Assembly (NCBI GenBank): GCA_947167075.1
Contig: CAMVGR010000002.1
Location: 124,001 to 188,000, forward strand
Origin: an uncultured Bacteroidales bacterium
Lineage (GTDB): Bacteria; Bacteroidota; Bacteroidia; Bacteroidales; P3
Direction: 5' to 3'
DNA: 64,000 nt
Every line of letters begins with the position of its first letter. Position 1 is the stretch's first letter. Below, one piece after another: positions 10,555 through 51,866 of this stretch. A program made the translations under genes and the position numbers. The notes beneath the pieces are model-generated. The model had not been told where the DNA came from. It did no database searches and was given only the letters and a program-made list of their open reading frames with translations.

Positions 10555-10764
10555 TCACTGCACCAGCAGCCTGCGGCTGGCGGTGCCATTGGGGGTAGAC
10601 ACCTTCAGCAGGTAGGCTCCGGCGGGCAGTGCGTGGATGTCGAGGTGCAGGGTGGTGGTCGGGGCGGGGATGGTCATCTGCAGCAGTTGCCCTACAAGGC
10701 AGAATCCGGAGTGTATGCCGCGTGGATGCTCCGCCAAAGGTCCGTGTCGGCACACGGCAATCAC
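10555..10764 (-). pseudogene. Mini-ORF encoding the C-terminal half of a T9SS type A sorting domain (copy 1)
   Basis: A 69-codon frame starts at a GTG inside the end of the 11-bp repeat, preceded in frame by a stop. Its last ~50 residues (VGQLLQMTIPAPTTTLHLDI, then LPAGAYLLKVSTP, then TASRRLLVQ) match the end of a T9SS type A sorting domain, but no secreted cargo is attached. Copy 2 at 63211-63420 is nearly identical here at protein level and differs mostly by synonymous changes. It could be the relic of a lost secreted protein or a functional mini-gene; the first 16 residues are poorly conserved between copies, which favours a relic or a recently recruited start. Confidence 0.55.
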
Positions 10765-39286: not shown

Positions 39287-42200
39287 ATGAGATACATACA
39301 AGAAAGCACAATGCGACACACTTTTACTACTGGCCGGATCCTACTGCTGGCCGCAGTGGGGTTGATTTTACTTGGTGGAACAACACAGGCTCAGATTGTT
39401 GTGCATGGCGATGTCTACGGTGCCGGCAAGGGGTCGGCAAGCGACAAGTCCGTCGCCTTAGTTAAGGGCAACTCTGATGTCGATATAGCAACCGGCAACG
39501 TCTATGGCAACGTCTATGGCGGCGGCGAATTGTCGTCGGTGGGTACCTATACCACCGAAGGTACCGGCGATGCCGAAGACTACACCGCCTGTGAAAACGG
39601 TAAGAGCACCGTCACCATCCGTGGCGGTCAGATAGGTAAGGTCGAATACGACAAGAAAGGTGTCAAGGTAGGCGGCTATGTCTTCGGTGGGGGCAAAGGC
39701 CGTAGCGGTCCCAACTATCGCCTGCATGCATTTGTCGACTCGGCACGTGTCAACATCATGCCCGGTGCTTTCGTCACGGCCTCTGTTTTCGGTGGTGCCG
39801 AAAACGGCCATGTCTTCACTAACACCTACGTCCGCATGACCGGCGGCAAGGTGGGTCAGGAAATCTCGCCCTCGCAGCGCGACTCCGAGGACCCCACCAC
39901 CGGCGTGGGCCGCTGGCTCTACTTCGGCAACCTCTACGGCGGCGGCCGCGGTGTCGACGCCATCGACTCGCTGCCCTGCGTGGTCAGCGCCGAGTATGTG
40001 GCCTATGCCGGCCTCAAGGTATATGGACAGGATGGTGTTACACTCGACGAAGCCGACTGCCACCTCACCGATGGCAAATACATCCTCTACTCCAAAAAGC
40101 CGTGGGTTGGGACCCGCAAGGACTCGGTATGCCCCACCAACTATAGCCTCACGGCAGGCCGTGTGCGCGGCAACACCACCGTCCATATCGACGGCGGCCG
40201 CGTGGTGCGCAACGTCTACGGCGGCGGCTCCCTGGCCTCGGTGGGTATGCCCACCGTCGACGGCACCGGCATCGCAACCGTGCTCATCAACGGCAACGCC
40301 GTCATCGGCTTAGCCGACAACTTCTACGAGATTGGCGCCAACGTAGGCCAGAAATTCAACGGCAAGGGCTACAACGACGCCGTTGTGGATTGGGCCAAGC
40401 ACAACACCGACGGCGAATACACCATCAATACCGTCAAGGACAGCCTCTTCTACCGCTGGGCCGGCCGCAACGCCGGCAACGTCTACGGCTCCGGCCGTGG
40501 TGAGCCCGGTTCCGGCAACAGCTTCTACACCCAGATGGCCTTCACCAAGAAGACCAATGTCACCATCGGCGGCAACGCCAAGGTGCGCGGCTCCGTCTTC
40601 GGCGGCGGTGAGAACGGCCATGTGCGCCAGAACACCAATGTCACCATCCAGGACAACTGCTTCATCGGCGTGCCCCCCACGGGCAGCGACAGCACCGCCT
40701 ACATGCAGGCCGACAGCCTGCGCCGCGGCCTGACGCTCACCGCCTCCGTCAAGCACCCCGACCCCAACAATGAGCATTGGGAGAGTGAGATTGGTGTTGG
40801 CCCCACCTTCTTCCGTGGCAACGTCTACGGCGGTGGCCGCGGTGTCGACACCGTGATGTTCTCCATCGCCAACCGTAAGCACTCCTCCACGGCCGGCCGC
40901 GTCTACGGCAACACCACCGTCAACGTCACCGGCGGCACCATCTACCACGCCGTCTTCGGCGGCGGCTCCCTGGCCTCGGTGGGCGACACCGTCTACCGCA
41001 TTAAGAAGGATACCACCATCACCTTCCCCGGCACCAGCGTCTCCGGCACCGAGTTCACCTCCGCCCTCTTCGACGCCATGGGCTACATCCTGGGCGCCGC
41101 CAACGCTTCGGACACCGTTGTCTTCGACTATGCCACCCGCGAGATGGTCTCCCACGGCGCCAACCAGCCCCAGAACCATCGCAACTTCCTCCGCCCGCAG
41201 TACACTGCCGAGGAAATCTCCAACGGCAACGGCAAGCAGGAATACACTATCGAGGATACCAACTGGGTCAACTATACCCGCCCCTACCGCGTGGGCGACC
41301 CCATCTACGGCACCGGCCTGGCCACGGTCACCATTAGCGGCGGCCAGATCGGCGTCACTGGCATCAACGACGGCCGTGTCTACGGCTCCGGCCGTGGTGT
41401 GGCTGGCGACAAGACCACCCTCTCCGAAATGATCAACATGGCCTACGTCCACAATAGCGAGGTCCGCATCCAGGGCACCGCCGACATCCGCGGCGCTGTC
41501 TTCGGTGGCGGCGCCAACGGCCACGTCACCCAGAACACTCTCGTGCGTATGAGCGGCGGCACCGTCGGCGTGCCTCTGCCCCTGGCCGAGCGTAAGGTAG
41601 ACCCTGCCACCGGACATGGCCGCCGCGTCTACCGTGGCAATGTATATGGTGGTGGCCGTGGTGTGGACCCCATCTCCAACACCGAGCACCTCTCCATGAC
41701 CGCAGGTCGCGTCTACGGCAACACCCGCGTCAACATTAGCGGTGGCAAGGTCTACCACTCCGTCTTCGGCGGCGGCTCCTTAGCCTCTGTGGGCACCTTC
41801 AACCTCGTCGACCTCGGCACCCCCGGCAACCCCAACATCAAGCACCTCTTCACCCAGGGCACCGGCATGGCCGTCGTCACCATCAGCGGCGATGCCTGGA
41901 TCGGCCACGACTGGCACGACCTCGAGCTCGACGGCAAGAGCGACGAGCAGATCAAGCAGGCCCTCTACGACTTCGTCGACGCCTCGGCAGCCGAGGGTAC
42001 CACCATCGCCCTCACCAAGTCAATCATCGACGACGGCATGAGCGCCGCCCAGCGCAAGACCGCCCTCATCGACTCCAACTATCGCTACCTCGGCTCCAAC
42101 TCCGGCATGGTCTTCGGCTCGGGCCGCGGTGTGGCAGCCCTGAAGGACGGCACCTTCGACCGCGACTATGCCGAGGCCGCCTTCACCAACAATACCATGG

Positions 42201-45200
42201 TCACCATCAAGAACGACGGTGTCAAGAAACCCATGATCTGCGGCTCGGTCTTCGGCGGTGGCGAGAACGGCCATGTGAAGCACAACACCCTCGTCACCAT
42301 CGAGGGCGGTGTCATCGGCGGCATACCGCTGCATAGCACCTCCTTCGTCACCAACGCCGGCAGCGACGAGTCCGGCGCCCTCCCCATCAAGTTCTCCGGC
42401 AACTCCGAAGCCATCACCCTCGACTTCCTCTATGAGGATGCCGAAGAGGAGACTGGCGTCGGCCCCACGGTCTACCGTGGCAATGTCTACGGCGGCGGCC
42501 GCGGTGTGGACCACATGGGAGACAAGGCCGTGCAGGGCTTCAGTGCCACGGCAGGCCGCGTCTACGGCAACGCCCGCGTCAACGTCACTGGCGGCGACAT
42601 CTACCACCACGTCTTCGGCGGCGGCTCCATCGCCTCCGTGGGCACCTACGACACAGTCATCGGCAGCGAGGGCTGGGATGCCAAGCTCACCGGCTCGCCC
42701 AAGAAGATCAATCAAATATATGAATATGTATCGCAGGCGATCGCTCAGAACCACGCTGGCGGCGCTGCCCTCGCTGCAAGCGACACCATGCAGTTCGTCA
42801 CTGGCAACATCGTGGTCACCATCAGCGGTGGCAAAATAGGACGTACCGGCAAGAACGAAGGCTCCGTCTTCGGCGGCGGCCGCGGTATCGCTGGTGCCCG
42901 CACCAAGGAAGTTACCCACTTGGCCTTCGCCAACAATACCACTGTTAATATCAATCAGGGAGCATACGTCACCGGCTCCGTCTTTGGCGGCGGTGCCAAT
43001 GGCCACGTGCTCTCCGATGCCCATGTTAATGTCAGCGGCGGCGTAGTGGGTACGGCCTTCACAGCCGACGACACCGTCACTACCCGCTATGGCTATTCAC
43101 CCCACAGCGTCTTCCATGGCAACGTCTACGGCGGTGGTCGCGGTGTCGACCCCATCGACGAGAGTCGCCTCTCGCGCACGGCAGGCCGTGTCTACGGCAA
43201 TACCTATGTCACCATGACTGGCGGCTGGGTGCGCCACTCCGTCTATGGCGGCGGCTCCCTGGCCTCCGTGGGCAACTACGAGACCTATGCTGCCGAAGAG
43301 AAAATCGGCGACAGCATTATCCATAAGAAGGACGACATCAAGCACCTCCGCTGGCTCGACGTCGAGACCGGCACCCTCCACAACTACGACCCCTCCCAGG
43401 CCGTCGACGACGCCGACAACGTCCTCGTCGAGACCCACTCTGGCCGCGCCACCGTCAAGATTCTCGACGGCTGGATCGGCGCCCGTCCCACGAGCGGCGA
43501 CGGCTCCGAGTACCACTACGCCAACGGCACCAACGACCAGCTGCAGGGTCAGGGCGGCGAAGGCCGCAACAACGGCAACGTCTTCGGCTCCTGCCGCGGC
43601 ACCGCAGGCAAGGGCTACGACTCCCTCGCCTACGTCAATATCACCCGCGTGGTTATCGGCAAGGGTCCCGACGACGCCTCCTACGCCGGCACCGGCCAGC
43701 CCCGCATCATGGGCTGCGTCTTCGGAAGCGGCGAGAATGGCCACGTCCTCGACTCCACCTATGTGCAGATGTACGATGGCCAGATCGGCCGCGGCAAGAA
43801 GGTCGACGGCTGGCTGCAGACCTTCATCGGCAACCTCTACGGCGGCGGCCGCGGTGTCGACATCTCCTTCGCCGACGGTCGTCCCTCGCCCAGCGCCGGT
43901 TGGGTCCACAACTCCACCTGCGTCGAGGTGCACGGCGGCCACGTCTGGCACAACGTCTTCGGCGGCGGCTCCCTCGCTGCCGTGGGCGACACCAACCACT
44001 CCGGCTACGAGAACATCGGTGCCGAGAACCGCGTGGGTCGCACCCGAGTCATCATCAAGGGCGGCCTCATAGGCTCCGACGGCGACCACAACGGCAACGT
44101 CTTCGGCTCTGGCCGCGGTCGTGCCGGCATACAGCACGACACCATCTTCGTCAATGTCGGACGCATCGTAGGTGCCTCCTCGCCCTACGACCTCAACGCC
44201 TCCACCCTCGCCATCCTCACCGGCGCCTTCGGCAGCGGCACCTACAAGGCCGTCACCTATCCCGCCGAGGCCAACCTCTACTACGTCACCAAGGACGGCT
44301 CCGCCCTCGTCCTCGACAACGACTTCTCCGAGATGACCTACGTCGTCAACTCGCTCGTCACTGTCAACTATACCACCACTGGCGACTACGCCACTATCAA
44401 GGATAACAACCGCATAGCCGGCTCGGTCTATGGTTCGGGCGACAACGGCCATGTACACCACGACTCGAAGGTAGACATCCTCGCGGGTACCATCGGCACC
44501 CTGGCCGACAGCCCCGTCAGCTACACCGAGAATGGCGTCACCACCCTCTACCGCGTCCTGCCCACCTCCGGCTCCGTCTACGGCGCCGGCCGCGGTCTCG
44601 ACCTCAAGTACAACAAGACCCTCTCGCAGTCCGCCGGCCGCGTCTACGGCAACACCGTCGTCAACGTCAGCGGCGGCAACATACTGCGCAACGTCTACGG
44701 TGGCGGCAACATGTCCTCCGTCGGCACCTACTCCTTCGTCGTCGAAGGCGGCGACACCACCCGCCTCAACTACATCGACGGCACCGGTGCCACCACCGTC
44801 AATATCACGGGCACGCCCACCATCGGCTACGCCGACTTCACCCTCAACGAGGGCGACGACACCGACCGTCCCGAGGTGGTCTACGGCAGCGTCTTCGGCT
44901 CCAGCCGCGGCTACGCCGGCCCCTCCTACACCAACACCGCTTTCGTCAAACAGACCACCGTCAATATCGGCCTCACCGATAGCGACAACCCCACCATCCT
45001 GGGCTCCGTCTTCGGCTCCGGCGAGAACGGCCACGTGCGTGACCTCACCACTGTCACCGTCAACGCCGGCACCATCGGCCAGCCACTGCCCGCCGGCTAC
45101 GACTACCTCGGCACCAAAGCTAAGGAGCACCTCAACTACGTGGGCAACGTCTACGGCGGCGGCCGCGGTGTCGACCACTACATCAAAGGCGGCAACCCCA

Positions 45201-47335
45201 CCTATAGCATGAGCGCCGGCTACGTGCGCGGCAAGACCAACGTCACCATCAACGGCGGCACCATCCACCGCAACGTCTACGGCGGCGGCTCCATGGGTCT
45301 CGTGGGCGACTACGGCTTCAACGGCGAAGACGACGCCTGGAAGGGCTCCGGCGACAACGGCCTGACCACCGTCACCATCCTTTCCAACGTCGGCACCGCC
45401 GCCGACCGCGCCATCGACGCCTCCTACGGCGGCAACGTCTACGGCTCCAGCCGCGGAAAGGCCATCAACCCCGCCGAGCCCAGCGCCGCTATCGCTGACC
45501 TCGCCGACATGGCCTACGTCCATAGCACCCTTGTCAACATCGGCACATCCGACGGCACCACCGCCCTCACCGTCTATGGCAACGTCTACGGCGGCGGCGA
45601 AGCCGGCCACGTCGACTACGGCGGCACCACCGTCAACATCCTCAGCGGCACCGTCCAGGGCTCCGTCTTTGGCGGCGGCAAGGGCTCCACCACTTCGCCT
45701 ACCGCAGGTATCGTCGACGGCAACACCCAGGTCAACATCGGCACCGACGCGCAGGCCTCCAATAACGTCGTCATCGGCGAGTATGTCTTCGGGGGCAACG
45801 ACGCCGGCTCCTCGCCACTCGGCACCATGCAGGTAGATGTGTGGCACACCAAACACAATGCTACCAACTCCTACCCCATCGTCGTGCCCGGCCCGGGTGC
45901 TAGCGATGCCGAGATAGAGGCATACGAAGCCAAGGTGGAAGAGATGAAGAATATCGATCCCGCAGTTGCAGCTCTGCAGACCAATTATGCTCTGAAGGCT
46001 GTCTACGGCGGTGGCAACCAAGCTAGCACCCTCACCGGCGACAAGACCAAAGACGGCAACGGCGATGCTGACAATGTCCTCAACGACAAGTACATCACCC
46101 AGCGCCTCAAGGCCACTGAGAACGGCAACCCCGCCTGGCCTGTTCCACTCAACCGCCTGTCGAAGGTGGTGATCCACGACTGCTATGAGAATACCGTGCA
46201 ATACGTATATGGCGGCGGACGTGCAGCTAATACCTATCAGAACGATGTTACCATCGAGGGTGGCCGTGTCTATCAGGCTTATGCTGGCGGCAATGGCTCC
46301 TCTGTCGAGGTGCCGGGCAATCCGGGTGCCAACGTGGAAAGCGATGCCACGCTGACCATCAAGGGTGGTATTGTATACGAAGCCTTCGGCGGCAGCAATA
46401 GCCTAGGACTGGTGAACGGCATCTCGAAGGTGATCCTTAATCCAGAAGATAACTGTCTGTTGATCAATAAGAACATCTTCGGTGGCGGCAACGAAGCCGA
46501 GGGTGGCGATGCCTTTGTCACCATCCCCTGTAGCGACAAGGTGTATAGTGCCGTCTATGGAGGTGCTAAACGAGCCAACACAGGTAACCCCTCCAATCAT
46601 AAGAACATTGTGCTCAACATCGAGGGAAGCACCATCGACCAGGTGTTTGGTGGCAATATGGATGGCGGCACCGTCTACGGCGATGTGCATGTTAATATCT
46701 ACGGCGGCACTATCGGCGAGGTGTTTGGCGGATCCAACAGAGGTGGACGCATCGAAGGTGTTGTCACCGTACTCATCGACTCGTCCAACTGCAGTGACTA
46801 TTGCCCGCTCAACGTCGACTATGTGTACGGCGGCGGCAACGAGTGCTCCTACGATCCTTCCTTCGACAATGCCAAAGACCATTCGCCCTTTATCTATCTG
46901 CGTCGCGGCACGGTGAACAAAGCCATCTTTGGTGGTGGCAAGGGTACCCTCGAGCTGCATGCCGACACTGCGGTAACTTCTAACCCCACCATCGTAATCG
47001 GCTCCGATAGCGAAAACTTCCCTGTGCAGGTAGGTACGTCGGCCACCATGACTCTTGGCTTCGGCGACATCTATGGCGGCGGAAGCCGTATGCCTGTGGT
47101 CGGAAACACCTATGTGGTGGTAGACGGATCGAAGACCCGTGTGTTCCACAACATCTATGGTGGCGGCAATCAGGCCAAGGTGACTGGCAATACCGATGTG
47201 CGTGTGGGCGATCCTTCAGACAAGTCTGGCAGCAATGCCATAGCACTGCCTGCAGGACTGAATGCCTATTTCGGCGAAACCCACTACGGTTTAGAACCAG
47301 GAACCACCTGCAAGAGTGCCCCAGTGACACCCTGA
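39287..47335 (+). CDS. Giant secreted Gly-triad repeat protein 3, 2682 residues, eight tandem modules
   Basis: The third tandem giant gene, 106 bp after the second. A signal peptide lies near the start (GRILLLAAVGLILLGGTTQAQ); the start could be M1 or M9. From about residue 290 to 2010 there are eight long modules of ~195-285 residues. Each has a VFGGGENGHV-like block, a GNVYGGGRGVD block, an AGRVYGNTxVNVxGG block and a VFGGGSLASVG block; the last block begins near nucleotides 40200, 40940, 41750, 42600, 43230, 43940, 44680 and 45270. The end (about 2150-2640) shares the C-terminal region with proteins 1 and 2, followed by ~30 unique residues. No T9SS sorting domain was found. Function unknown. 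Confidence 0.85.
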   Translation: MRYIQESTMRHTFTTGRILLLAAVGLILLGGTTQAQIVVHGDVYGAGKGSASDKSVALVKGNSDVDIATGNVYGNVYGGGELSSVGTYTTEGTGDAEDYTACENGKSTVTIRGGQIGKVEYDKKGVKVGGYVFGGGKGRSGPNYRLHAFVDSARVNIMPGAFVTASVFGGAENGHVFTNTYVRMTGGKVGQEISPSQRDSEDPTTGVGRWLYFGNLYGGGRGVDAIDSLPCVVSAEYVAYAGLKVYGQDGVTLDEADCHLTDGKYILYSKKPWVGTRKDSVCPTNYSLTAGRVRGNTTVHIDGGRVVRNVYGGGSLASVGMPTVDGTGIATVLINGNAVIGLADNFYEIGANVGQKFNGKGYNDAVVDWAKHNTDGEYTINTVKDSLFYRWAGRNAGNVYGSGRGEPGSGNSFYTQMAFTKKTNVTIGGNAKVRGSVFGGGENGHVRQNTNVTIQDNCFIGVPPTGSDSTAYMQADSLRRGLTLTASVKHPDPNNEHWESEIGVGPTFFRGNVYGGGRGVDTVMFSIANRKHSSTAGRVYGNTTVNVTGGTIYHAVFGGGSLASVGDTVYRIKKDTTITFPGTSVSGTEFTSALFDAMGYILGAANASDTVVFDYATREMVSHGANQPQNHRNFLRPQYTAEEISNGNGKQEYTIEDTNWVNYTRPYRVGDPIYGTGLATVTISGGQIGVTGINDGRVYGSGRGVAGDKTTLSEMINMAYVHNSEVRIQGTADIRGAVFGGGANGHVTQNTLVRMSGGTVGVPLPLAERKVDPATGHGRRVYRGNVYGGGRGVDPISNTEHLSMTAGRVYGNTRVNISGGKVYHSVFGGGSLASVGTFNLVDLGTPGNPNIKHLFTQGTGMAVVTISGDAWIGHDWHDLELDGKSDEQIKQALYDFVDASAAEGTTIALTKSIIDDGMSAAQRKTALIDSNYRYLGSNSGMVFGSGRGVAALKDGTFDRDYAEAAFTNNTMVTIKNDGVKKPMICGSVFGGGENGHVKHNTLVTIEGGVIGGIPLHSTSFVTNAGSDESGALPIKFSGNSEAITLDFLYEDAEEETGVGPTVYRGNVYGGGRGVDHMGDKAVQGFSATAGRVYGNARVNVTGGDIYHHVFGGGSIASVGTYDTVIGSEGWDAKLTGSPKKINQIYEYVSQAIAQNHAGGAALAASDTMQFVTGNIVVTISGGKIGRTGKNEGSVFGGGRGIAGARTKEVTHLAFANNTTVNINQGAYVTGSVFGGGANGHVLSDAHVNVSGGVVGTAFTADDTVTTRYGYSPHSVFHGNVYGGGRGVDPIDESRLSRTAGRVYGNTYVTMTGGWVRHSVYGGGSLASVGNYETYAAEEKIGDSIIHKKDDIKHLRWLDVETGTLHNYDPSQAVDDADNVLVETHSGRATVKILDGWIGARPTSGDGSEYHYANGTNDQLQGQGGEGRNNGNVFGSCRGTAGKGYDSLAYVNITRVVIGKGPDDASYAGTGQPRIMGCVFGSGENGHVLDSTYVQMYDGQIGRGKKVDGWLQTFIGNLYGGGRGVDISFADGRPSPSAGWVHNSTCVEVHGGHVWHNVFGGGSLAAVGDTNHSGYENIGAENRVGRTRVIIKGGLIGSDGDHNGNVFGSGRGRAGIQHDTIFVNVGRIVGASSPYDLNASTLAILTGAFGSGTYKAVTYPAEANLYYVTKDGSALVLDNDFSEMTYVVNSLVTVNYTTTGDYATIKDNNRIAGSVYGSGDNGHVHHDSKVDILAGTIGTLADSPVSYTENGVTTLYRVLPTSGSVYGAGRGLDLKYNKTLSQSAGRVYGNTVVNVSGGNILRNVYGGGNMSSVGTYSFVVEGGDTTRLNYIDGTGATTVNITGTPTIGYADFTLNEGDDTDRPEVVYGSVFGSSRGYAGPSYTNTAFVKQTTVNIGLTDSDNPTILGSVFGSGENGHVRDLTTVTVNAGTIGQPLPAGYDYLGTKAKEHLNYVGNVYGGGRGVDHYIKGGNPTYSMSAGYVRGKTNVTINGGTIHRNVYGGGSMGLVGDYGFNGEDDAWKGSGDNGLTTVTILSNVGTAADRAIDASYGGNVYGSSRGKAINPAEPSAAIADLADMAYVHSTLVNIGTSDGTTALTVYGNVYGGGEAGHVDYGGTTVNILSGTVQGSVFGGGKGSTTSPTAGIVDGNTQVNIGTDAQASNNVVIGEYVFGGNDAGSSPLGTMQVDVWHTKHNATNSYPIVVPGPGASDAEIEAYEAKVEEMKNIDPAVAALQTNYALKAVYGGGNQASTLTGDKTKDGNGDADNVLNDKYITQRLKATENGNPAWPVPLNRLSKVVIHDCYENTVQYVYGGGRAANTYQNDVTIEGGRVYQAYAGGNGSSVEVPGNPGANVESDATLTIKGGIVYEAFGGSNSLGLVNGISKVILNPEDNCLLINKNIFGGGNEAEGGDAFVTIPCSDKVYSAVYGGAKRANTGNPSNHKNIVLNIEGSTIDQVFGGNMDGGTVYGDVHVNIYGGTIGEVFGGSNRGGRIEGVVTVLIDSSNCSDYCPLNVDYVYGGGNECSYDPSFDNAKDHSPFIYLRRGTVNKAIFGGGKGTLELHADTAVTSNPTIVIGSDSENFPVQVGTSATMTLGFGDIYGGGSRMPVVGNTYVVVDGSKTRVFHNIYGGGNQAKVTGNTDVRVGDPSDKSGSNAIALPAGLNAYFGETHYGLEPGTTCKSAPVTP

Positions 47336-47730: not shown

Positions 47731-48924
47731 ATGAAATATACGAAACATATTATTATTCTACTAGGACTTCTATCGATGCAGACCCTGGCAATGGGCCAGG
47801 TAGACAACCCACCCAAGAAACAGGAGATAAAGGTCGGCAATCTGGATGTGATATATGACGACGAAGAGTATAAGGGAGTGGTCGACGAACCGGAAGAAGA
47901 GCCGGAGGACGACAACCTGATGTACCAAGTGCCCTACTTCCGCGAGATGGGCAACGAGGAGGATGATTTGGAGGAAGAACAGCGGGAGACATTCACCCTG
48001 ACCGACGACGGTGCCGAGAGTGAGGACGAGATATTGCTAGAAGGATTCGACACGGCGGTGATCCACTTGCCCCGACTGGATGTGAGCTCCATTGGCGAGC
48101 CTATCATGATAGAACTAGGCAAATTCACATGGCCTACACCGTGGACCTCGCGTCCGACGAGCCATTTCGGTCCACGCCGCCGCCGCTTCCACTATGGACT
48201 AGACCTAGCTCAGCCTACGGGCGAACCCATCTATGCGGCCTTCGACGGTGTGGTGAGGGTGTCGCGCAGGAACAGGAGCTATGGCCACCTGGTGATAATA
48301 CATCATGCTAATGGGCTGGAGACCTATTATGCCCACATGTCGAAACGCATGGTGAAAGCCGGCGACCATGTGACCAGCGGACAGCAGATAGGACTGTGCG
48401 GCAACACCGGACGCTCGTTCGGAAGCCACCTGCACTTCGAAATACGCTACATGGGCAACGCGATGAATCCGGAAAATGTGATCGACTGTCAGACCCACGA
48501 CCTGCTTTCGCCCACGCTGACGCTGACTTCGTCGTCGTTCCGGAAAGTGGCTAAACACGGTGCCACAGCCAGAGGCCGAAGCGGAGGCACCCCCAGCAGC
48601 GGGTGGTATCGTGTGCGTCAGGGCGATACGCTGGAGAAGATAGCCCGTCGCAACGGCACCACGGTGAGACGACTGTGCCAACTGAACGGTATATCGGAGA
48701 ATAAGATCATACATCCTGGCGACCGCCTAAAGGTGAGCGGTAATGCTTCGGCCACCCCACCCAAAGCTTCGCCGTCGGGCAGCTCAACCTACACCGTACG
48801 GCAGGGCGACAACCTGAGCAAGATAGCACGTCGGCACGGCACATCGGTCAAACGGCTATGCAAACTGAACGGAATCAAGGAGACCTCCACCCTCCGTGTC
48901 GGGCAAAAACTGAGAGTGCGATGA
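47731..48924 (+). CDS. Exported M23 peptidase with two LysM domains
   Basis: A 397-residue exported protein. The signal peptide is [23 protein letters not shown], followed by an acidic linker (about 50-110). The M23 (LytM) domain spans about 135-250 with zinc ligands H154 and D158 in HYGLD and H235 in HLHFE. Two LysM domains (about 293-337 and 353-397, each with YxVRQGDxLxKIARR) should bind peptidoglycan. It probably cuts peptide cross-links in the cell wall or activates an amidase. Because both metal-binding motifs are intact, it may be catalytically active. Its stop overlaps the trmD start (ATGA), so the two are likely co-translated, although their functions differ. Confidence 0.93.
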
Positions 48925-49610
48925 GAATAGACATACTCACGCTGTTCCCCAACATGATGCAGATGTTCTTCGAAGAGAGCATCCTTAAGCGGGCGCAGAA
49001 GAAGGGATTGGCCGAAATCGTCTTCCACGACCTGCACGACTATTCTCTGACGCGCTATGGATCCATCGACGACTACCCATACGGAGGCAGTGCGGGCATG
49101 GTGATGGCAGTGGAGCCGGTGGCCAACTGTATAGAGGACTTGCAGCGACAACGCACATACGACGATATTATCTACACCGCACCCGACGGCGAAATGCTAT
49201 GCCAGCCCATGGCTAACGAACTGTCGTTGGCACAGAATCTGATGGTGCTGTGTGGACACTACAAGGGGGTGGACGAACGTATACGGGAGCATTTCATCAC
49301 CCGAGAGATAAGCATCGGCGACTATGTGCTGACAGGAGGCGAACTGGCTACGGCGGTCATCTGCGACGCCGTGATACGCCTTCTGCCGGGGGTGATAGGC
49401 GATGAGCAGTCGGCCCTAGCGGACTCGTTCCAAGATGGCCTCGTGGCACCGCCGGAATACACACGTCCGCCCGAGTTTCGCGGCTGGAAGGTGCCCGACA
49501 TCCTCCTCAGCGGCAACCACCAGAAGATAGAGCAATGGCGCTTAGAACAAGCCATCCAACGCACCAAAGAAAGACGACCCAACCTGCTGGAAAAGAACAA
49601 ACAACAATAA
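48921..49610 (+). CDS. trmD: tRNA (guanine37-N1)-methyltransferase
   Basis: TrmD methylates G37 next to the anticodon using S-adenosylmethionine, which prevents frameshifting. It has 229 residues. Start [13 protein letters not shown] was chosen because it overlaps the upstream stop (ATGA) and opens with the family's first strand; a frame running 21 codons further back inside the peptidase gene was rejected. The SPOUT knot shows [12 protein letters not shown] near residue 110, then [13 protein letters not shown] and DILLSGNH, all characteristic. Immediately after the stop the REP-type palindrome array begins (first palindrome 17 bp later), so the trmD 3' region would lie in a highly structured transcript. 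Confidence 0.96.
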
Positions 49611-49626
49611 AGGATCACCAACATGC

Positions 49627-50080
49627 GACCCCGTAGGGGTCGCATAATAATAGAGATCCGAACAAATCAATAGCTACAACCGACCCCGTAGGGGTCGCAT
49701 ATCAATAGAAAGACGAGAAGAACATCACCTAGCCCCGACCCCGTAGGGGTCACATAATAATAGAGAGCCGAACAAATCAATAGCTACAACCGACCCCGTA
49801 AGGGTCGCATATCAATAGAAAGACGAGAAGAACATCACCTAGCCCGACCCCGTAGGGGTCACATAATAATAGAGATCCGAACAAATTAATAACTACAACC
49901 GACCCCGTAGGGGTCGCATATCAATAGAAAGACGAATAGAACATCTCCAAGACCCGACCCCGTAGGGGTCACATAATAATAGAGAGCCGAACAAATCAAT
50001 AACTACAACTGACCCCGTAGGGGTCGCATATCAATAGAAAGACGAATAGAACATCTCCTAGCCCCGACCCTGTAGGGGTC
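49627..50080 (+). repeat. REP-type palindrome array, block 1 (nine copies, 55-bp pitch)
   Basis: Nine copies of the 15-bp palindrome GACCCCGTAGGGGTC start at 49627, 49682, 49737, 49792, 49846, 49901, 49956, 50011 and 50066 (two have a single base change). Spacing is 54-55 bp. The ~40-bp spacers alternate between two types: one with CATAATAATAGAGA and CCGAACAAAT, the other with CATATCAATAGAAAGACGA. The real repeat unit is therefore a ~110-bp dimer. The last palindrome ends 13 bp before the transposase ATG. Confidence 0.95.
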
Positions 50081-50093
50081 GCATAACAAAAAA

Positions 50094-50555
50094 ATGGCCA
50101 ACACCTATTGTCAAATATATGTTCATATCATCTTCGCGGTAAAATACCGCGGAGGATTCATCGCTGAATCCTGGCAGCAAGAACTCTACTGCTACATGTC
50201 CGGTTCAGCAGTAGTTCATGGCCACAAGGTGTATGCCATAGGTGGGATGAAAGACCATGTACACATCCTTGTCAGCATGAGCCCGACACAGTCAGTATCG
50301 GATATGGTCAGAGACCTAAAACGTGCTTCGACCATTTGGATAAAAGAACGGCACCTCGTTGATGGCAACTTTGCTTGGCAAGAGGGCTTTGGTGCTTTCA
50401 CATACAGTAAGTCGCAAATAAGCAACGTGATAAATTATATACAGAACCAGAAGCAACATCATATTGGAAAGACAATGCAGGAAGAGTATAAAGAGTTCTT
50501 GTCGATATTTGGCATAGAATTTGATGAAAGATATGTATTCCGTGAGCCAGATTAA
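50094..50555 (+). CDS. IS200/IS605-like Y1 (HUH) transposase, REP-associated type
   Basis: A 153-residue single-domain transposase of the Y1 HUH family, which nicks single-stranded DNA at hairpins through a covalent 5'-phosphotyrosine. The metal-binding HUH motif is H55-V-H57 in KDHVHILVS. The likely nucleophile is Y115 with its partner Q119 in NYIQNQ, in the same spacing as IS200/IS605 TnpA. All these residues are present, so it may be active. Length matches TnpA. It is enclosed by palindromes that could be its substrates. TnpB is absent. The ATG follows a short A-run with no evident ribosome-binding site. Confidence 0.93.
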   Translation: MANTYCQIYVHIIFAVKYRGGFIAESWQQELYCYMSGSAVVHGHKVYAIGGMKDHVHILVSMSPTQSVSDMVRDLKRASTIWIKERHLVDGNFAWQEGFGAFTYSKSQISNVINYIQNQKQHHIGKTMQEEYKEFLSIFGIEFDERYVFREPD

Positions 50556-50559
50556 AATG

Positions 50560-50851
50560 AAACCCCTACGGGGTTTGAACGAAAGGAAGAGGATAGGCCA
50601 ATGCTATTGGAATGAAACCCCTATGGGGTTTAACCGAAAAGAAGAGGAATGGACTGTACTACTGAGATGAAACCCCTACGGGGATTGAATGAAAGGAAGA
50701 GGATAGGTCGATGCTATTGAAATGAAACCCCTATGGGGTTTAACCGAAAAGGAGAGGAATGGACTGTACTACTGAGATGAAACCCCTACGGGGTTTGAAT
50801 GAAAAGAAGAGGGTAGGTCAATGCTATTGAAATGAAACCCCTACGGGGTAA
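50560..50851 (-). repeat. REP-type palindrome array, block 2 (inverted core, six copies)
   Basis: Six copies of AAACCCCTACGGGGTTT (with small variations) start at 50560, 50615, 50670, 50725, 50780 and 50835, exactly 55 bp apart. The core is the reverse complement of the block 1 core. Two spacers alternate: one with GAAAGGAAGAGGATAGG, the other with CGAAAAGAAGAGGAATGG, so again the unit is a 110-bp dimer. A degenerate copy (ACCCCCACGGGG) lies at about 50883. It starts 4 bp after the transposase stop. Confidence 0.93.
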
Positions 50852-50935
50852 TATCAATGAAAAAACTTAAAAACCTCTACTAACCCCCACGGGGATCAAA
50901 AGAATAGAGTGTAGAACAGTATAATACAAACAACC

Positions 50936-51168
50936 GACCCCGTAGGGGTCACATATCAATAGAGACGAACAGCACAACACAAACAACTGACCCCGTAGGG
51001 GTCACATAATAATAGAGAGACAAACAGAATAACAACCAAAATCGACCCCGTAGGGGTCGCATATCAATAGAAAGACGAATAGAACATCACCTAGCCCCGA
51101 CCCCGTAGGGGTCACATATCAATAGAGAGCCGAATAAAACAGCACCTAGAACCGACCCCGTAGGGGTC
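50936..51168 (+). repeat. REP-type palindrome array, block 3 (five copies)
   Basis: GACCCCGTAGGGGTC recurs at 50936, 50989, 51044, 51099 and 51154, with 53-55 bp spacing and the same spacer families as block 1, though more diverged. The last copy ends 35 bp before the clpP ATG. Confidence 0.93.
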
Positions 51169-51203
51169 GCATATCAATAGAAACGAACAAAAAAACACAT
51201 ACA

Positions 51204-51866
51204 ATGACAGAATTTGAGAAATACGCCACCCGTCACCGTGGCATCAGCAGCACCACCATGGCCAAATACACGTCGGCCATCAATAACTCGCTCACGCCAT
51301 ATATCGTTGAGGAACGCCAGCTGAACGTGGCCCAGATGGATGTCTTCAGCCGCTTGATGATGGACCGCATCATCTTCCTCGGCACCGCCATCGATGACTA
51401 TACCGCCAACGTCATCCAGGCCCAGCTCCTCTTTCTCGAGAGCGTCGACCCCGAGAAGGACATCCAGATCTACCTCAACTCGCCGGGAGGCTCGGTCTAT
51501 GCCGGCCTCGGTATCTACGACACCATGCAGTACATCCAGCCCAAGGTGAGCACCATCTGCACCGGATTGGCCGCTTCGATGGCCAGCGTGCTTCTCTGTG
51601 CCGGCGAGAAAGGTCGCCGCTGTGCCCTACCGCACGCCCGCGTAATGATCCACCAGCCTATGGGTGGTGCCGACGGTCAGGCCACCGACATGGAAATCAC
51701 CGTCCGCGAGATACTAAAGCTCAAGAAGGAGCTCTACGAAATCATCGCCAAGCATAGTGGCCAGCCCTTCGAGCAGGTGGAGAAAGACAGCGACCGCGAC
51801 CACTGGTTCACTGCCGAAGAAGCCCTCGCCTACGGCATGATCGACGAGGTGCTAACGAAGAAGTAA
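51204..51866 (+). CDS. clpP: ATP-dependent Clp protease proteolytic subunit
   Basis: The serine protease chamber of the Clp system, which degrades proteins unfolded by ClpX or ClpA/C. It has 220 residues. The catalytic triad is intact: S125 in GLAASMASVLL, H150 in VMIHQPMGG, D199 in SDRDHWF. The oxyanion-strand motif LNSPGGSV is at about 91-98. ClpX and trigger factor, common neighbours of clpP elsewhere, are not here; the next gene is convergent. No TAnnTTTGC box was found between the last palindrome and the ATG, so its transcript may start inside or upstream of the REP array. A strong terminator follows. Confidence 0.96.
   Translation: MTEFEKYATRHRGISSTTMAKYTSAINNSLTPYIVEERQLNVAQMDVFSRLMMDRIIFLGTAIDDYTANVIQAQLLFLESVDPEKDIQIYLNSPGGSVYAGLGIYDTMQYIQPKVSTICTGLAASMASVLLCAGEKGRRCALPHARVMIHQPMGGADGQATDMEITVREILKLKKELYEIIAKHSGQPFEQVEKDSDRDHWFTAEEALAYGMIDEVLTKK

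Follow-up and report, generated by a model that had tools for sequence, protein, structure and literature searches.

The described example of a bacterial transposase domesticated and retained with short repeats is that of repetitive extragenic palindromic (REP) systems. Here, we compare with them a locus from an uncultured gut Bacteroidales bacterium, found in a 64,000-nucleotide stretch of contig CAMVGR010000002.1 (hereafter the window, numbered from its first letter), in which a gene for a transposase of the HUH (histidine, hydrophobic residue, histidine)/Y1 type, tnpA, lies between trmD and clpP amid arrays of palindromes. We consider it likely that this locus is a REPtron-like unit, that is, a selected, single-copy Y1 transposase of subclass 1.2 accompanied by a REP type of its own. 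The reading is directly supported by the anatomy of the locus, the polarity of a short tag that accompanies the palindromes, covariation of the base pair that closes their core, a link between gene and repeat across genomes, a low ratio of nonsynonymous to synonymous substitution rates (dN/dS) and an empty site in relatives.

The TnpAREP enzymes of REP systems and those of the IS200/IS605 insertion sequences recognize single-stranded hairpins in a strand-specific manner, cut them and transfer the strands, as the account of Corneloup 2021 (PMC8266576) has it. Among the related TnpAY1 enzymes, the survey of Quentin et al. 2018 (PMC6006769) marks out a subclass 1.2 by the motifs Y---Q--HH, DH[IV]H and WQ, a median length of 148 residues, a conserved C-terminal domain, low copy number and a distribution mainly in Bacteroidetes and Cyanobacteria. 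The survey's entry for REP in this subclass is 'no'. Its automatic REP search, in the survey's own description, demanded GTAG or GTGG 5' of the hairpin, with some subclasses inspected manually, so that a repeat such as the present one would be missed by the automatic step. That entry, an absence recorded by the survey and not a feature of the sequence, does not hold here, where structured repeats are present around tnpA and some of its homologues.

The tnpA product, 153 residues long, matches the Pfam family Y1_Tnp at 96.2 bits, the only such match in the whole genome, and has the sequence features by which TnpAY1 subclass 1.2 is told apart, not those of the class 2 REP-associated tyrosine transposases (RAYT). 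Its D54H55V56H57 and W95Q96 fit the DH[IV]H and WQ motifs, and its tyrosine motif, YIQNQKQHH, fits Y---Q--HH; the Y---NP motif of class 2 RAYT is absent from the protein, which has YIQNQ instead. Across 20 aligned proteins, that of the window included, H55, H57, W95, Q96, Y115, Q119, H122 and H123 are invariant; a few homologues deviate at the HUH motif (DHLH, DHMH or NHIH), and one from the wider phylum (L123) has Y---Q--QH, with QH replacing HH. The aligned proteins share a conserved C-terminal tail, which the AlphaFold model shows as partly helical, and on the strength of alignment and model the length and tail agree with those of subclass 1.2, as do the copy number of one and the Bacteroidota host.

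The resemblance to RAYT systems drawn in the initial annotation of this DNA, made from the letters alone, does not extend to the protein as a RAYT proper: TnpA reaches 25.5 bits with the NCBIfam model REP_Tyr_transpos, below its cut-off of 80 (E. coli RayT, as a control, scores 179), and passes the IS200 model with 75.5 bits against a cut-off of 55. Could the locus then be an ordinary IS200-type insertion sequence (IS) whose subterminal hairpins have multiplied? IS200 is the best NCBIfam model, and the folds nearest to the AlphaFold model (predicted local distance difference test score of 90) are ISDra2 and IS608 TnpA, followed by E. coli RayT. Grouping with ordinary IS200, which had been named as a finding that would speak against a REPtron, thus holds as far as nearest kinship goes, but not for the separate subclass 1.2 marks or the single copy in the genome. 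The seven IS200 subclass 1.1 rows of a 51-row tree, which has few outgroup rows and long branches, also form a clade of their own, set off by a 100/99 branch of length 3.13; the remaining rows, RayT apart, are subclass 1.2-like, L123 with its QH among them. Furthermore, the hairpins on the two sides of tnpA are inverted relative to each other and not on the same strand, and tnpA copies within one genome, compared in two relatives, are only 70–78% (G188) and 89% (G189) identical in nucleotides, a divergence unlike that of an active IS, whose copies would be identical. We therefore regard an ordinary IS as quite improbable.

What had been described at the locus itself, a Y1 transposase with H55, H57, Y115 and Q119 inside about 21 palindromes and without tnpB, was recovered in full. 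The palindromes span positions 49626–51197 as nine direct, six inverted and five direct units plus a degenerate one (Table 1), and no tnpB lies between tnpA and its neighbours trmD and clpP. The array to the right of tnpA is the left array copied in inverted orientation, its first unit overlapping the 3' end of the gene. In the left array, adjacent units agree at 75% and next-but-one units at 95%, giving a super-period of 110 bp; because next-but-one units resemble each other more than neighbours do, the repeat that multiplied last was probably a 110-bp pair.

Each unit holds a hairpin with a stem of 5–7 bp and a loop of 3 nt, and four sample units fold at z values of −2.9 to −4.1. For the tag, we used 39 loci that had been retrieved through the gene and nothing else (the window included), of which 21 hold the core, CCCCGTAGGGG, in a total of 102 distinct contexts. 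In 51 of these contexts (38 of 86 when the window is set aside), AATAG is placed exactly at +9 from the core, and no context has it at the same offset on the opposite side; the consensus at +8 to +14 beyond the core is TCAATAG. A wider count of 77 in 135 contexts is biased, as it took in 20 loci and the second cluster found by the tag pattern. A standard base pair closes the core in 97 of the 102 contexts (AT 46, TA 40, GC 10, TG 1), compared with a shuffled mean of 45%, a contrast whose significance the shuffles overstate because the contexts are related. Between the window's genome (G000) and its sister G073, 23–24 of the 25 core nucleotides are identical, compared with 20 of 30–31 in the spacer.

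Judged by these column counts, the repeat is a GTA-loop hairpin with a one-sided TCAATAG-like tag at a fixed distance, and not a GTAG-REP. No fixed 5' tetranucleotide (GTAG or GTGG at the hairpin foot) appears in the counts, and a canonical GTAG-REP is ruled out by the tag lying 3' of the hairpin, with none 5'. The string GTAG does occur, spanning the loop and the first G of the stem, which may be a coincidence. The regular spacing of the palindromes is also what an array of clustered regularly interspaced short palindromic repeats (CRISPR) would offer, but the stretches between them are near-identical copies and not unique spacers; this repetition speaks against such an array, although no search aimed at cas genes was made, and we give it practically no weight. 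PADLOC returned no match at E values up to 0.01, and a defence-system reading was dropped.

The link between gene and repeat was surveyed in 190 genomes of the family, with the pattern counted at up to one mismatch. A tnpA homologue is found in 71 genomes and the pattern in 49, with 487 copies overall against five matches to a reversed control. Where the homologue scores at least 140 bits, the pattern is present in 19 of 26 genomes, compared with 30 of the 164 others (p 5e-8), and at least ten copies are present in 11 of 26, compared with 2 of 164 (p 2e-9); 18 combinations of threshold and group were tried, and p was below 0.05 in 17 of them. As the genomes are not independent, these p values are indicative. 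Orientation was read at 34 homologue loci (L010 and L011 being omitted as duplicates of L023 and L024), with units called at up to four mismatches, so that some may be chance matches. Units lie on both sides in 19 of these loci, and in 14 of the 19 (the window and 13 others) the nearest upstream unit is in plus and the nearest downstream unit in minus orientation. That copy number tracks close homologues, that tnpA sits between inverted units at most two-sided loci and that units occur at many places in some relatives all support the proposal, made in the initial annotation, of a REPtron-like locus whose palindromes are candidate substrates of the enzyme.

The same data bear on a passive minisatellite, in which a hairpin tandem repeat grew by slippage or unequal crossing-over and a transposase landed in or beside it with no functional link. 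Units that are alike within a species, with spacers that differ between species, would suit such an origin, and a 110-bp super-period is what unequal exchange is expected to leave. The link between gene and repeat across genomes, the inverted flanking, the strand-specific tag with its covariation and the clusters at many sites in G028 (below) argue against it, and we think it unlikely; even so, slippage or exchange may be the route by which the arrays grew.

The history of the site points to a unit that arrived and was then kept. Among 30 clpP loci of the genus, 18 have trmD followed by clpP across a gap of 2–210 bp in which no unit was seen on inspection; the others are that of G073, with a tnpA locus, that of G095, with other DNA, and ten without trmD shown, the window's own, shortened, among them. 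In G101, too, tnpA lies between trmD and clpP. Given the unit-free gap in relatives, tnpA with its arrays appears to have been inserted between two genes that were already neighbours. A single ancient insertion may explain why the trmD–clpP site is common to G000, G073 and G101, but in the tree of trmD and clpP, which is poorly resolved, species without the gene lie between the three. Between G000 and G073, tnpA shows a synonymous rate (dS) of 0.84 and a nonsynonymous rate (dN) of 0.053; the resulting dN/dS of 0.063 points to selection for function, under which the gene would have been kept.

The empty gap bears equally on the possibility that the arrays, lying between trmD and clpP, serve mainly as signals in RNA or in transcription, such as terminators or barriers to RNases, with tnpA incidental. 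Eight terminator-like matches, compared with a shuffle mean of 2.8, lend this some colour, but all eight are on the minus strand, whereas trmD, tnpA and clpP are all on the plus strand, which has none. With no Rfam match at E values up to 1, a gap free of units in 18 relatives and copies elsewhere in other contexts, we hold this explanation to be very improbable.

Dispersal of the repeat differs by genome. In the window's own (2.27 Mb in 37 contigs), an extended pattern allowed up to three mismatches has 23 matches, 20 of them at this locus, and the reversed control has none; the concentration of units at tnpA is not due to chance. The other three matches mark a second cluster, without a gene, on contig C1 at about 115059–115440 (L052 2059–2440), where a looser scan and reading of the sequence give one direct and then five inverted units with the stem AAACCCC and loops TAAT/TGAT. 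This cluster adjoins a long perfect hairpin. The hexapeptide-repeat gene beside it was sought in 20 relatives and its 3' flank compared in 12; none of the 12 flanks holds a cluster of this type, isolated loose matches occur in G014 and G075, and the gene order differs, making this weak evidence for an empty site. The exact 11-mer was also found once on C8, which is taken as a chance match, the reversed control having one match too. The relative G028 holds 160 copies of the pattern, and the seven places fetched from it are small local arrays on several contigs, whose spacers resemble one another inside each array and are in part common to different arrays. At one G028 place (L198 3431–3916), an array of units of about 54 bp is open as a 161-residue repetitive frame on the opposite strand.

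Beyond the family, the TnpA profile matches 182 of 392 Bacteroidota genomes (E up to 1e-3), of which only part were checked for subclass. We examined 49 loci, 29 returned by the search after the window's own and 20 hand-picked from the remaining list, and at least three similar hairpins lie within 1 kb on either side in 18 of them (at least two in 25). Of 20 places picked arbitrarily from the genomes of these loci, none had even two. At least three were found in none of 490 shuffles (at least two in 4) and none of 24 clpP loci (of 30; at least two in 2), and a further control gene likewise had none in 11 loci (of 13; at least two in 1). Part of this difference may reflect the intergenic flanks of a small gene, because the controls are mostly coding DNA. 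Two homologue loci from Prevotella metagenome-assembled genomes, L019 and L021 (the latter matched at residues 1–85 only), have one palindrome per side, CGGGGGTGACAACCCCCG upstream and CGGGGGTTNTCACCCCCG downstream. In Pedobacter sandarakinus (L017), at least four recurring palindrome types occupy a stretch of about 1.6 kb on the upstream side of the homologue.

Several observations weigh against a REPtron-like unit. In G073 (RUG061), the tnpA copy (L010 4001–4459) has an in-frame TAG in its C-terminal part, and the arrays persist. When only the first match per locus is counted, the exact tag at +9 is found in 7 of 21 loci, and the next two pairs outward from the core-closing pair show no clear excess of covariation in the 102 contexts. 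One of the 18 association settings (confined to the genus, admitting weaker homologues and requiring at least three copies) gave p 0.12, and 7 of the 26 genomes with a close homologue hold no copy at up to one mismatch. Equal frequency of the palindromes without the transposase, which had been put forward as a refutation, is not what we find, though 11 of the 119 genomes without any homologue match hold 1–16 copies (16 in G120, which is 74% complete); eight of the 11 fall short of 90% completeness, and the gene may have been lost. Spread of the palindrome through the window's genome, raised at the same time, comes to a single further gene-less cluster, which is minimal. G052 has 15 copies. Thirteen of its sites that are not beside the gene (L093–L105), spread over 12 contigs, were retrieved, and inspection by eye places every one within a larger element of about 200–260 bp with inverted ends, CCCAAATCGGTCA..TGACCGATTTGGG. 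This element looks like a miniature transposon holding tagged REP hairpins and may be moved by another enzyme. Across the phylum, 31 of the 49 loci are without three or more similar hairpins, and the orientation rule outside the family is a weak trend, the nearest hairpin upstream being plus in 13 and minus in 5 and that downstream minus in 9 and plus in 8 under a loop rule of our own devising.

In IS608 and ISDra2, the right-end cleavage site is TCAA, and the order is hairpin, linker, TCAA. By analogy, the TCAATAG tag of the present REPtron-like unit is likely to be its cutting site. What we say of binding, the place of cleavage, mobilization, array growth and any host benefit is inference. 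TnpA would bind the hairpin on an exposed single strand, probably the lagging strand, use Y115 to cut at the tag, which lies some 7 nt past the core stem, or beside it, and then rejoin the ends. Excised pieces of one or two units would re-insert beside another tag, and because each unit carries the cutting-site tag, head-to-tail arrays would form around tnpA, and certain relatives would gain further clusters at other places. Either tag-guided insertion or unequal crossing-over would do to build the direct arrays. More tentatively, and with the balance of our judgement slightly against it, subclass 1.2 may be the enzyme that, across Bacteroidota, serves a REP type not recognised so far, made of GTA-loop hairpins and their kin with a strand-specific 3' TCAATAG-like tag, whose units it would mobilize and stack head to tail into arrays; this would be a second origin of REP systems, from the IS200 class and not from class 2.

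Table 1. Features of the locus between trmD and clpP (positions in the window)
Feature	Position	Strand	Basis
trmD (Pfam tRNA_m1G_MT), upstream neighbour, tRNA m1G methyltransferase	48921..49610	+	Pfam match
Left array, nine units of 54-55 bp (GTA-loop hairpin, 9 nt, AATAG)	49626..50089	+	pattern scans, unit comparison
tnpA, single-copy HUH/Y1 transposase, 153 aa, TnpAY1 subclass 1.2 marks	50094..50555	+	profiles, alignment, model, tree
Middle array, six units = left unit inverted (CTATTG..ATGAAACCCC-TAC-GGGGTTT)	50551..50849	-	pattern scans
Degenerate palindrome AACCCC-CAC-GGGGATC	50882..50897	.	read from sequence
Right array, five units of 53-55 bp, oriented like left array	50932..51197	+	pattern scans
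clpP (Pfam CLP_protease), downstream neighbour	51204..51866	+	Pfam match

Elsewhere in the window, one 11-bp unit, CACCGTACATG or its complement, forms four short arrays of about 4.5 copies at 10763, 28600, 47437 and 63163, and a 2682-residue open frame rich in VYGGGRGVD-like repeats extends over 39287–47335.

If our reading is true, two separate classes of Y1 enzyme have been domesticated, and the tag hints at a route by which tandem arrays could grow. The locus offers a compact, candidate pair of enzyme and substrate, and related species differ strongly in copy number.

Set beside what is described, the system appears to work like a REPtron, stands outside the RAYT class and extends subclass 1.2. 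With the REPtrons of class 2 TnpAREP/RAYT (E. coli RayT of subclass 2.2; group 3 of Stenotrophomonas and Marinomonas) it shares a low-copy HUH/Y1 gene flanked by hairpin repeats that also occur elsewhere in some genomes, and in the Marinomonas REPtron, as described in PMC8266576, the repeats are likewise concentrated near the gene. It differs from them in a Y---Q--HH protein where class 2 has Y---NP, in a TCAATAG-like tag 3' of the hairpin where theirs is a GTAG 5' at its foot, and in long direct tandem arrays. From TnpAY1 subclass 1.2, as characterized in PMC6006769, it has the sequence marks, the Bacteroidetes host, the single copy and the C-terminal tail, and departs in having structured repeats where the published entry for REP is 'no'. 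With IS200/IS605 elements of subclass 1.1 (IS608, ISDra2) it has in common the catalytic fold, the HUH motif with Y and Q, and hairpin substrates (candidate ones here), whereas the single copy, the lack of an adjoining TnpB, the inverted arrangement, the low dN/dS and the absence of identical IS-like copies in the two relatives' genomes compared (G188 and G189) set it apart. Bacterial interspersed mosaic elements of type 2 (BIME-2) and REP doublets forming hairpins (REPIN) likewise gather alternating REP units in clusters; the units that surround tnpA here differ in being about 55 bp long and in following one another head to tail in direct orientation, with a 110-bp super-period.
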